From the NCBI GenBank assembly GCA_945868825.1, contig CAMBMM010000003.1, positions 124,001 to 188,000 of the forward strand: 64,000 nucleotides of DNA, given 5' to 3'. This DNA is from Sphingobacterium thalpophilum (GTDB taxonomy: Bacteria > Bacteroidota > Bacteroidia > Sphingobacteriales > Sphingobacteriaceae). A program made the position numbers and the translations under genes. Shown in pieces: positions 5,142 to 24,292 of this stretch (within the stretch, counting starts at the first letter, position 1; the number at the start of each line of letters is the position of its first letter). The notes under the pieces are model-generated. The model saw nothing but the letters and a program-made list of their open reading frames with translations. It had not been told where the DNA came from and searched no databases.

Positions 5142-5684
5142 TTATTTATTCTTGTTTGTAATATTTTTTAAGGCTTCCCAACGCGGGTCGGCCACTTCTT
5201 CTGTTTTTTCTTCGGGTGCTGCCAATTTTTTCAGCGTTTCTAGCATTTCTGCATCGCACCAGGTCGTTTTTCCTTCTTCTTTACAGCGGTTAAACGTAGG
5301 AACGCCTAGCATAATGTATTCGTAAATTAAAGCAGATACATCAATTTCGTTCTCGTTTTTGTGTAGTACAATCAGCTCGTCAACGTTGTCTTCTAACAAT
5401 TCATCGTTGCTAAACTTTACAATTTCTTGCTGCTCTAGGTGTAATGGTGTTGGAAAACCGGCCAAACACACATCGCAGTTCTGAAAAACTTCGCCATCAA
5501 TTCGAAAATTAAGCACCAACATGGTTTCTTGTTTATCAAATTCGAGGGCTACTTTCAGGGAGCCTTTTTGTACTAGTGAATACTCAAATTCTTTAAAAAA
5601 TTGTTCGTTTATCTCGTATTCAAACACATGTTTCCCGATTTTAAGGCCAGAAAACGGAATTAAGTATTGCTGTAAAAATTTCAA
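5142..5684 (-). CDS. YceD/DUF177 family protein
   Basis: The 180-residue product belongs to the DUF177 (YceD) family, conserved immediately upstream of rpmF. In plants and some bacteria the family is linked to 23S rRNA accumulation, but its biochemical role is not settled. Visible features are a CDVCL pair near residue 92 (preceded by the family's VFQNC pattern) and two further Cys in CKEEGKTTWC near the C-terminus, a possible metal site (inference). It is the first gene of the lipid run; the gap to pdxA upstream is 78 bp. Confidence 0.8.
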   Translation of the reverse strand: MKFLQQYLIPFSGLKIGKHVFEYEINEQFFKEFEYSLVQKGSLKVALEFDKQETMLVLNFRIDGEVFQNCDVCLAGFPTPLHLEQQEIVKFSNDELLEDNVDELIVLHKNENEIDVSALIYEYIMLGVPTFNRCKEEGKTTWCDAEMLETLKKLAAPEEKTEEVADPRWEALKNITNKNK

Positions 5685-5762
5685 AGCACGACAGTTAAGC
5701 CTGCAAATTTAGGAAAAATTATTCTAAGCGGAAACAGTTTTTTTGGAAAAAGGCAGTGGCAC

Positions 5763-6818
5763 TTAATCGCGATCCCTAGAAAGTTTGCTCACTTTTAAGG
5801 GCTTGGCTGTTAAAATGGCATTTTCCCTACGATTTTTAACAATATGAATGGCGGTAAATACGGCTTCGCGGAAGGATCCTGCATCGGCTTCGTTTTTGCC
5901 GGCTAAATCGTAAGCGGTTCCATGATCGGGGGAGGTGCGTACCACGGGCAAACCTGCTGTAAAGTTTACGCCTTGATGAAAAGCCAATTGTTTAAAAGGA
6001 ATTAAGCCTTGATCGTGGTACATGGCCAATACGGCATCAAATTTTTTCCAGCTTTGGTTGGCAAAAAAGCCATCTGCTGGGTAAGGACCAAAGGCCAATA
6101 ACTCATTTTTATTCGCTTCGGCAATGGCTGGTGCAATGATACTTTCTTCTTCTTTGCCTAATAAGCCAGAATCGCCGGCATGTGGGTTGAGGCCCAATAC
6201 GGCAATTTTGGGTTTTTCAATCCAAAAATCGCTTTTTAAACTTTGGTTAATGAGCGCTAATTTGCTTAAAATTTTCTCTTTAGTAATGCTTTTAGGCACT
6301 TCGCTCAAAGGCACGTGGCCGGTAACTACGCCAACTCGTAAATCTTCGCCCATTAAAAGCATGAGTGAATCGGAGGCACCAGCTTTGGCTTGAATATATT
6401 CGGTGTGCCCCGCAAAGGTGAAGGCCTCACTTTGAATGTTTTGTTTGTTAATGGGAGCCGTAACCAAAGCATCAATTTCGCCAGCTATTAGATCGTTGGT
6501 GGCTCTTTCTAAAGATAGAAAGGCGTATTTGCCACCGGTTTCATTGGCTTCGCCCAAATCAATTTTCACATCTTCTTCCCAGCAATTAATCATGTTGGCT
6601 CTGCGGTGAAGCGCATCGGCTGCTTGGTTAATTACGTTGAAGCTAAATTCCTCAATTCCCATGGTTTTACGATGAAAGGAAGCCACTTTGGTTTGGCCAT
6701 ACACAATAGGCGTACAATAATCGAGGATGCGTTTATCTACTAAAGTTTTGATAATCACTTCTAAACCGATGCCATTTACATCGCCAATGGAAATTCCTAT
6801 TTTGATTTTGTCGCTCAT
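5763..6818 (-). CDS. pdxA: 4-hydroxythreonine-4-phosphate dehydrogenase
   Basis: NAD-dependent oxidation of 4-phosphohydroxy-threonine in pyridoxal 5'-phosphate synthesis. The 351-residue protein has GISIGDVNGIGLEVIIK at the start, TAPINKQNI, GHTEYIQAK (metal ligand His), GLNPHAGDSG and AMYHDQGLIPFKQLAFH followed by RTSPDHGTAYDLAG, all typical PdxA motifs. It is divergent from rsmA across 106 bp, an arrangement seen in many bacteria as a pdxA-ksgA neighbourhood. The assignment is firm. Confidence 0.96.
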   Translation of the reverse strand: MSDKIKIGISIGDVNGIGLEVIIKTLVDKRILDYCTPIVYGQTKVASFHRKTMGIEEFSFNVINQAADALHRRANMINCWEEDVKIDLGEANETGGKYAFLSLERATNDLIAGEIDALVTAPINKQNIQSEAFTFAGHTEYIQAKAGASDSLMLLMGEDLRVGVVTGHVPLSEVPKSITKEKILSKLALINQSLKSDFWIEKPKIAVLGLNPHAGDSGLLGKEEESIIAPAIAEANKNELLAFGPYPADGFFANQSWKKFDAVLAMYHDQGLIPFKQLAFHQGVNFTAGLPVVRTSPDHGTAYDLAGKNEADAGSFREAVFTAIHIVKNRRENAILTAKPLKVSKLSRDRD

Positions 6819-20553: not shown

Positions 20554-20629
<76 letters not shown>

Positions 20630-20667: not shown

Positions 20668-20739
20668 GGCCCGTTCGTCTAGGGGTTAGGACGCCAGGTT
20701 TTCATCCTGGAAACAGGGGTTCGATTCCCCTACGGGCTA
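20668..20739 (+). tRNA. tRNA-Glu (UUC)
   Basis: A 72-nt cloverleaf: acceptor GGCCCGT with ACGGGCT (G1-U72 wobble), D arm containing GGGGTTAGG, anticodon stem CCAGG/CCTGG with loop TTTTCAT giving anticodon TTC, and T arm AGGGG-TTCGATT-CCCCT. The CCA end is not encoded. It lies 38 bp after the initiator tRNA and both are upstream of one terminator, so they are cotranscribed. Confidence 0.95.
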
Positions 20740-20747
20740 CAGAAATT

Positions 20748-20781
20748 AAAAACCCTCACCGAATTTCGGTGAGGGTTTTTT
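20748..20781 (+). terminator. Intrinsic terminator of the tRNA transcript
   Basis: A long hairpin with AACCCTCACCGA and TCGGTGAGGGTT around a 3-nt loop, flanked by an A-run and ending in TTTTTT, lies 8 bp after tRNA-Glu. It is strong and well formed. Confidence 0.9.
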
Positions 20782-20858: not shown

Positions 20859-23800
20859 ATGATTCTTCAGCTTAAAAAACTATCCGCTTTTGCCCTTCTA
20901 CTTTTTTTTTGTTGAGCCGTATCGGCCCAAACCAAAACCAATATTGATGAAGGCTGGAAATTTCATTTCGGCCATGCTGCCGATCCGGCAAAAGATTTCA
21001 ATTATGGTGTTGCAGCCATTTTCTCTAAATCGGGAAAAACAGACCAGACCGCTTTGGCCGCTAATTTTGATGATTCAGCTTGGCGAACCCTTAATTTGCC
21101 GCACGATTGGGCGGTAGAGTTGCCCTTTAGCAATTCGCCTAATTTTGATGTTCAATCGCATGGCTATAAGCCGGTAGGGGGCTTGTATCCCGAAACGAGC
21201 ATTGGCTGGTACCGCAAGCATATTTCCATTGCCAAAGCCGATTCGGGCAGTCGCATCAGTTTGCAATTTGATGGAATTTTTAGAAATGCCAGCATTTGGA
21301 TAAACGGATTTTATTTGGGCACCAACCAAAGTGGCTATGTGGGTCAAACATATGATGTAACCGATTATGTAAATTTTGGTAAAGACAATATTATTGCCGT
21401 TCGGGTTGATGCTACCCAATACGAAGGTTGGTTTTACGAAGGTGCCGGCATTTATCGCCACGTATGGTTAAAAAAATCGAACAACTTACATTTGGCTCAA
21501 GACGGCGTATTTGTGCATTCGGAAGTGAAAGAAAAGCAAGCCACTGTATTTGTAGAAGCCACCATTAAAAATGAACAGCTTGCCTATGCCTCGGCAATAC
21601 TATATTCATACCTTACTAACCGAAGCGGCAAGGTTTTAGCGCAAAGCAAGCCACAAGCCATTCGTGTTTCTCGAAATGGGAGCACAAGCGTTAAACAACA
21701 ATTCACTATTACTAACCCTAGGCTTTGGTCTTTAGAAGACCCGTATTTATATCGTGTAGTTTCGGTAATTAAGCAAGGTAATCAAGTGGTAGATTCACTT
21801 AAACAACGCATGGGGATTCGTACCCTTCGTTTCGATGGTAAGGAAGGTTTCTTTTTAAATGGTAAGCACGTAAAAATTCAGGGAGTAAACAATCACCAAG
21901 ATCATGCAGGATTGGGAAGTGCCTTACCCGATTATATGCAATACTACCGGGTTCAATTATTAAAAGATATGGGTGTAAATGCCTACCGAACAAGCCACAA
22001 TGCACCAACCCCCGAATTGCTAGATGCTTGCGACAGTTTGGGTATGTTGGTGGTAGACGAACAACGCTTGCTAAACAGCAGTCCCGAATACCTCGATCAG
22101 TTTGAGCGCCTTATTAAACGTGACCGCAACCACCCCTCTGTATTTTTATGGTCTATTGGCAACGAAGAAGGCTGGATACAAGCCAACAGTGTGGGCAAAC
22201 GCATTGCGCTAACCCTGCTAGCCAAACAGCAGGAGTTAGACCCTTCACGTACTAGTACCTATGCTGCCGATATGGGCAACGTGTTTACTGGAGTAAATGA
22301 AGTCATTCCGGTTCGTGGATTTAACTATCGTCAATTTGCGGTAGCTGATTATCATAAAGATCATCCCAACCAACCCCTTATTGGCACCGAAATGGGCAGT
22401 ACGGTTACTACCCGTGGTCAGTATGCATTGGATTCGCTAAAAGCTTACGTACCCGACCAAGATATTACTGCACCTTGGTGGGCCAGCCGTGCCGAAACCT
22501 GGTGGAAATTAGCCGCTGAGAACGCATATTGGGCTGGTGGATTTATATGGACTGGCTTTGATTATAGAGGAGAACCTACGCCATTTAAATGGCCAAACAT
22601 TAATTCACATTTCGGGGTAATGGATATGTGTGGCTTCCCTAAAAATATTTACTACTATTACCAAAGTTGGTGGACCGATAAAGATGTTTTGCATATTTCG
22701 CCCCATTGGAATTGGCCCGATAAAGTTGGCCAAGCGATTGATGTATGGGTAAACTCCAACGCCGATGATGTAGAATTATTTTTAAACGGAAAAAGTTTAG
22801 GAAAGAAAACAATGCCTCGTAACGAGCATTTGCAGTGGTCGGTGGTGTATGAACCAGGTACCTTAGAGGCCATTGCCTATAAAAAAGGGAAGCGTTTAAC
22901 TAGTAAAGTAGAAACAACCGGCCCAGCCGTAGAAATAGTACTTACCCCCTATAAAACTACTCTAATTGCCGATGGACAAGATGTTGCCGTAATGAACATT
23001 ACCGCGGTAGACAAAGAAGGTAGAGAAGTACCAACAGCGAATCAATTAATCAAATTTTCTTTAAAGGGCGATGCCAAAATTATTGGCGTGGGCAATGGAG
23101 ATCCAAGTAGTCATGAAGCCGATAAATGTGCCGATGGCGCTTGGCAACGTAGCTTGTTTAATGGCAAATGTCAAGTACTGGTGCAAGCCGGCAAAAATGT
23201 AGGCAGCATTCAGTTTGAAGCCAGTGCCGAAGGGCTTTGGAAAGGGTCAACCGATATTATAACGGTATCTCCAACAAGTGTAGCCACAATTACTTCGGAT
23301 AAAAAATACGAGCTTTCTGGTGAAGCTGCTAAACCACGACAAGCCACCCAAATGTTGGGAGCCGACATCTCTTTTTTACCAGAGCTAGAAGCTAAGGGTA
23401 TTAAATTTTCCGATAAAGGAGTAGAAAAAGATCCCATTTTGATTATGAAGGAACACGGATTAAATTATGTGCGTTTGCGCATTTTTAACGATCCCGCCAA
23501 TGCAAAGGGTTACTCTCCCGGAATTGGTTTTTGTGATTTGGCCCATACCAAGGCCATGGCCAAACGTGTTAAAGCGGCCGGAATGAAATTGCTTTTAGAT
23601 TTTCATTATAGCGATTATTGGGCCGATCCTGGTAAACAATTTAAACCTGCTGCTTGGGAGAATTTAGATCCTGAAGAATTAAAACAAGCGCTATATGACT
23701 ATACGAAAAAAGTGATACAGGAATTGAAAGACCAAGGCACCACACCCGATATGGTACAAATTGGAAATGAAATTAACCACGGCATACTATGGCCCGAAGG

Positions 23801-24254
23801 CAGTGTAAGTAATATTGATTACTTAGCCCAATTGATTAAAGCCGGCACTGCAGCAGTAAAAGCGGTTGATCCCACCGTGGTGATGATGCTCCATGTTGCG
23901 CTTGGCGGGCAGCACGATGAATCGACTTTTTTTATTGATAATATGTTGGCTCGTGGGGTACATTTTGATGTAATTGGCGAATCGTATTACCCAAAATGGC
24001 ACGGCACCCTAGCCGATTTGGAAAACAATTTGACCGCCTTGGTTAAAAGGTATAATAAAGATGTGATGGTGGTAGAATATTCTCAGTTAAAAAATGAGGT
24101 AAACAAAATTGCCTTTGAACTCCCCAATGGAAAAGGCAAAGGTACCTGTATTTGGGAGCCACTAAGTACGTGGGAAGCCTTCTTTACTAAAGATGGAAAA
24201 TCGAATGCTTATTTAAGCGTGTACGATACGTTGAGTAAACAGTATATGAAATAA
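20859..24254 (+). pseudogene. GH2 beta-galactosidase fused to GH53 endo-beta-1,4-galactanase, interrupted by TGA in the signal peptide
   Basis: From the ATG at 20859 the frame encodes a signal peptide (MILQLKKLSAFALLLFFC), meets TGA at 20913-20915 (codon 19), then continues without break as AVSAQTKTNIDEGWKFHF to 24254. Apart from that codon it is an intact 1,131-residue protein. Residues 20 to about 810 are GH2: jelly-roll N-domain (LPHDW, GIFRNASIWING), barrel with IGNEEGW (acid/base Glu436) and GTEMGS (nucleophile Glu511), then beta domains. Residues 832-1131 are GH53: MLGADISFLPE, IGNEINHG (Glu971), VVEYSQ (Glu1073). GH53 enzymes cut beta-1,4-galactan and GH2 beta-galactosidases remove galactose, so the fusion suits pectic galactan. 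No ATG lies close downstream of the TGA. It may be a recent pseudogene, a sequencing error, or be expressed without its signal from a TTG such as 21054. Confidence 0.85.
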
Positions 24255-24284
24255 AAAAAGCCTCTCAATCGGGAGGCTTTTTTT
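24253..24284. terminator. Bidirectional terminator between the GH2-GH53 gene and the FnIII lipoprotein gene
   Basis: A hairpin with GCCTCTC and GGGAGGC around AATC, flanked by an A-run on the left and a T-run on the right, starts at the stop codon of the GH2-GH53 frame. The lipoprotein gene on the other strand ends 9 bp beyond, so it can serve both. Confidence 0.85.
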
Positions 24285-24292
24285 ATGTGTTC

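Follow-up and report, generated by a model that had tools for sequence, protein, structure and literature searches.

How does a gene for a GH2 (GalA-like)-GH53 enzyme come to carry a stop codon inside its signal peptide while the rest of its frame stays open, and is the enzyme still made? In the window, that is, the whole stretch of 64,000 nucleotides that was analysed (from a genome of 1.66 Mb, here G000), an ATG opens a signal peptide, MILQLKKLSAFALLLFFC, which is interrupted by a TGA in frame at codon 19. The residues directly after the TGA are AVSAQ, in a longer read AVSAQTKTNIDEGWKFHFG, and 1,112 sense codons follow up to a TAA at 24252-24254 (Table 1). This layout had been described by an earlier, sequence-only reading and was confirmed by translation. 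The interrupted frame is beyond chance, as the conserved start and signal peptide of two close relatives align with it residue for residue through the stop.

Table 1. Features at and around the interrupted enzyme gene (window positions).
Feature	Position	Strand	Basis or comparison
tRNA-Met (CAT), upstream neighbour	20554..20629	+	ARAGORN
tRNA-Glu (TTC), upstream neighbour	20668..20740	+	ARAGORN
Terminator-like hairpin between tRNAs and enzyme gene	20748..20780		sequence
Signal peptide, first 18 codons including start	20859..20912	+	G001 and G002 share the ATG and the 5' flank; G003-G005 start with GTG
T9 tract just before the stop	20902..20910	+	two of the nine bases are C in G001 and G002
In-frame TGA	20913..20915	+	G001 and G002 have TTA (Leu)
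Remaining GH2 (GalA-like)-GH53 enzyme frame, 1,112 codons and TAA	20916..24254	+	translation, domain matches, motifs
Terminator-like hairpin 3' of enzyme gene	24251..24286	+	sequence

A single frame past the stop holds both a GH2 part, with Pfam matches to PF02837, PF00703, PF02836, DUF4982 and PF18565, and a GH53 part, matched by PF07745. The GH2 part is also matched by the NCBIfam model NF041462 (GalA), scoring 1106 bits where the cut-off is 900, the match to its N-terminal domain starts at residue 13 past the stop, and the motifs that in our reading contain the catalytic glutamates of both domains are present. Galactan-degrading fusions of this kind are widespread in Bacteroidota. The window copy shares with them the domain order and the catalytic motifs, and a signal peptide is present in the relatives, but the stop is found in the window copy only. 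Of 110 related loci, 84 give one continuous match, and among about 110 protein relatives no stop lies within the conserved part, the few that were flagged sitting at match edges. The gene is solitary: its downstream neighbours encode an S8 protease, an efflux system and a peptidase, and no galactan or polysaccharide utilisation locus was found among the neighbouring genes in the window. The earlier suggestion that the stop reflects selection against galactan use is unsupported, since elsewhere the genome has a second and intact GH53 gene (C1:483974-484984), directly 5' of a galactokinase-type gene, and losing the fusion would not necessarily abolish galactan use. In the stretch L169:3749-9275 (G000:C1), the GH53 galactanase gene and the galactokinase-type gene directly after it are followed by a rhodopsin gene with genes for lycopene cyclase and beta-carotene dioxygenase, so that the organism may be photoheterotrophic.

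The ancestral state of codon 19 was read from five congeneric genomes (G001-G005) of a genus known from uncultured Sphingobacteriaceae genomes. G001 and G002 are the closest to the window genome; G003-G005, which to judge by their isolate names probably come from a freshwater reservoir, are more distant. All five have an orthologue without the stop, with the G002 contig covering only the first 276 post-signal residues, and none of them has a separate downstream start. In G001 and G002, whose proteins are 94% and 93% identical to that of the window, the ATG is at the identical position, the signal peptide is kept and codon 19 is TTA (Leu), CTTCTTTTCTCTTGTTTAGCC in the relatives corresponding to CTACTTTTTTTTTGTTGAGCC in the window, while G003-G005 have an aligned GTG start and a signal peptide as well. 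The presence of TTA in the two closest congeners indicates that the sense codon is ancestral and that TGA was derived from it by one base change (TTA to TGA). The comparison with relatives, which the sequence-only reading had proposed, thus settles on a sense codon, and a single substitution would repair the gene, as had been stated. Compared with the five congeners, the window genome is the only carrier of the TGA.

The sequence past the stop carries the signature of a protein under strong purifying selection. In the comparison with G001 it has a dN of 0.031, a dS of 0.472 and a dN/dS of 0.066, and, when codon changes are polarised by the outgroups, 14 changes on the window branch are nonsynonymous and 60 synonymous, compared with 14 and 51 on the sister branch. 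With all 1,112 codons open in addition to these counts, there is little or no decay past the stop. Together, the branch counts and the low dN/dS indicate that selection maintained the protein through almost the whole period since the split from G001, and, as the window branch has no extra amino-acid change relative to its sister, either the stop is very recent or the protein is still made.

The reading that we favour, with a probability of about 0.68, is a very recent single-base nonsense mutation from TTA to TGA, with what is probably a young loss-of-function allele as its product, perhaps still polymorphic and possibly confined to the strain level. A very recent nonsense mutation had been thought probable from the start, and it is the best supported of the explanations in light of the relatives' TTA, the lack of a separate downstream start and the purifying selection. 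The change would have arisen very recently in the lineage of this uncultured genus; ribosomes starting at 20859 would then yield an 18-residue signal-peptide stub and stop, and, for lack of a nearby in-frame start, no exported GH2-GH53 enzyme would be expected. The interrupted frame and the ancestral TTA are shown by the sequences; that the protein is lost and the allele polymorphic is inferred. Against a nonsense allele, the absence of decay past the stop would equally fit a working gene or a sequencing error. According to the survey of Belinky et al. 2021 (PMC7918605), many in-frame stops in bacterial genes have a dN/dS below 1 and are mostly short-lived, and the explanations considered there are polymorphism, readthrough and young pseudogenes. 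The window allele resembles the young nonsense alleles of that survey in its single in-frame stop, its otherwise intact and selected gene and the sense codon of its relatives, and also in being read as short-lived; it differs in that its stop is found in one genome and inside a signal peptide, whereas the survey focuses on stops shared by at least two species. Such alleles are known already, and the one described here would be an ordinary event in bacterial genomes.

Among the alternatives, an error in the consensus or assembly survives best, although we consider it unlikely. The gene would then be intact in the organism, with a sense codon at this position, as would agree with a stop that is found in one genome only, lies three bases past a T9 tract and goes along with unrelaxed purifying selection. 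However, the difference is a substitution, unlike the indel typical of homopolymer errors, and the assembly is clean, with four contigs and 99.38% completeness, which speaks against frequent errors but cannot vouch for a single base. A census of in-frame stops also argues against an error. About 1.2 of the 1.66 Mb of G000 were compared with about 0.77 Mb of G001, and among the 458 ORFs (163,096 aa) matched between them only the GH2-GH53 gene is full-length, more than 90% identical and yet clearly interrupted by a stop; most of the other flagged stops were taken, from where they lie and on which strand, for over-extended starts, gene ends or shadow frames. The same census includes a PAS-domain histidine kinase gene on contig C2 of G000 (L229:5120-6609; about 5305-6606), in which a TAA splits a frame that is unbroken over 494 aa in G001; at 78% identity to G001, it may be a second interrupted gene.

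The remaining explanations depend on how UGA is read in this genome, where it is a stop. Three window ORFs with 200 aa or more end in TGA, and the RF2 gene prfB (L230:17576-18592, corresponding to G000:C2:37576-38592) is intact and keeps its programmed UGA frameshift (AGGAGG...CTTTGAC). The tRNA-Trp has a five-pair anticodon stem, with G-U as the top pair in our own reading, and several other Sphingobacteriaceae genera have it with 100% identity. No UCA-anticodon suppressor tRNA was found in the approximately 864 kb scanned, and selB stayed below the cut-off in a search of the whole genome. A UGA-reassigned code is excluded by the TGA-ended ORFs, the intact prfB with its usual frameshift, the unchanged tRNA-Trp and the lack of a UCA tRNA in the scanned sequence, in agreement with the sequence-only reading, and selenocysteine insertion was rejected as unsupported on the selB result and the same tRNA scan. 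A tRNA-Trp with a 4-bp anticodon stem was looked for, and the five-pair stem was found instead. The known system of UGA readthrough by such a tRNA (PMC13092985) is similar to the window in its in-frame UGA, its functional-looking downstream part and its low UGA stop usage, but differs in that the tRNA-Trp of the window genome is five-paired (top G-U) and the same as in its relatives, with no reassignment.

Readthrough at some level, yielding full-length exported enzyme in smaller quantity, is in our view quite unlikely. It would account for the low dN/dS past the stop, and in-frame stops with a dN/dS below 1 are reported to be common in bacteria, with carbohydrate metabolism among the top categories (PMC7918605); in addition, G000 and its sister nearly avoid free-standing TGA stops, as could follow from poor termination. 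Yet the TGA is new and conserved in no relative, and the tRNA, RF2 and selB results just described all weigh against it. No positive evidence for this earlier proposal emerged, and literature searches on this gene or on signal-peptide readthrough in Bacteroidetes yielded nothing specific.

The scarcity of TGA was measured in sampled stretches of G000 (L118-L137, L165-L184, L229-L246 and the window) and G001 (L138-L157, L185-L204). Of the 996 ORFs with 120 aa or more in G000, 56 end in TGA; 37 of these 56 overlap the next gene on the same strand, and 36 of the 56 stops read ATGA. Among non-overlapping ORFs, free-standing TGA stops make up 2.1% in G000 and 2.6% in G001, compared with 11.8% in Bacteroidota control loci with a G+C content below 42%; TGA is commoner in loci of the more distant congeners (7/28, few genes). 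This avoidance could reflect poor termination at UGA, or merely mutational and overlap effects. A second stop within six codons follows 18 of 25 orthologue-backed genes ending in TGA and 94 of 358 ending in TAA. As a sign of leaky UGA this excess was rejected, because TGA stops mostly belong to an ATGA that is shared with the following gene, an ATG being near the stop in 30 of 35 TGA-ended genes; this association with overlaps likewise weighs against readthrough. A study of eubacteria also detected no selection for fail-safe stops (PMC6764699). A more speculative proposal, which we hold to be very unlikely, is that UGA terminates poorly in this small-genome lineage, which has nearly given up free-standing UGA stops, and that the UGA in the signal peptide therefore acts as a valve for low-level expression and not as a knock-out.

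Also very unlikely is initiation at a non-standard start after the stop, which would give a signal-less enzyme that stays in the cytoplasm. The codons ATT at 20943 and TTG at 21054 are in frame, and the GH2 N-terminal domain match begins at residue 13 after the stop. However, no standard start precedes codon 66, the position of that first TTG, which already lies within the GH2 N-terminal domain, and all congeners start upstream and keep the signal peptide. The first in-frame ATG past the stop is at 21810 (codon 318), in accord with the earlier remark that none is close downstream, no hydrophobic stretch after the stop could act as a signal, and no in-frame start after it comes with a signal that would restore the product. 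Phase variation had been raised by the earlier reading, and a mononucleotide tract, the T9 run, does adjoin the stop. Switching by slippage of this tract is excluded, since the tract precedes a TGA that is in frame with the enzyme and whatever length lets ribosomes escape the TGA also loses that frame, so that no tract length turns the gene on; only a base change inside the TGA itself could restore it. The relatives have no such tract.

If the TGA is real, the locus cleanly captures, in nature, how gene loss begins in a small-genome lineage, in a gene whose remaining sequence was under selection until just now, and it offers a convenient check on whether a genus with so little use of UGA fully treats it as a stop. 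Otherwise, it holds a sequence error or a routine nonsense allele.
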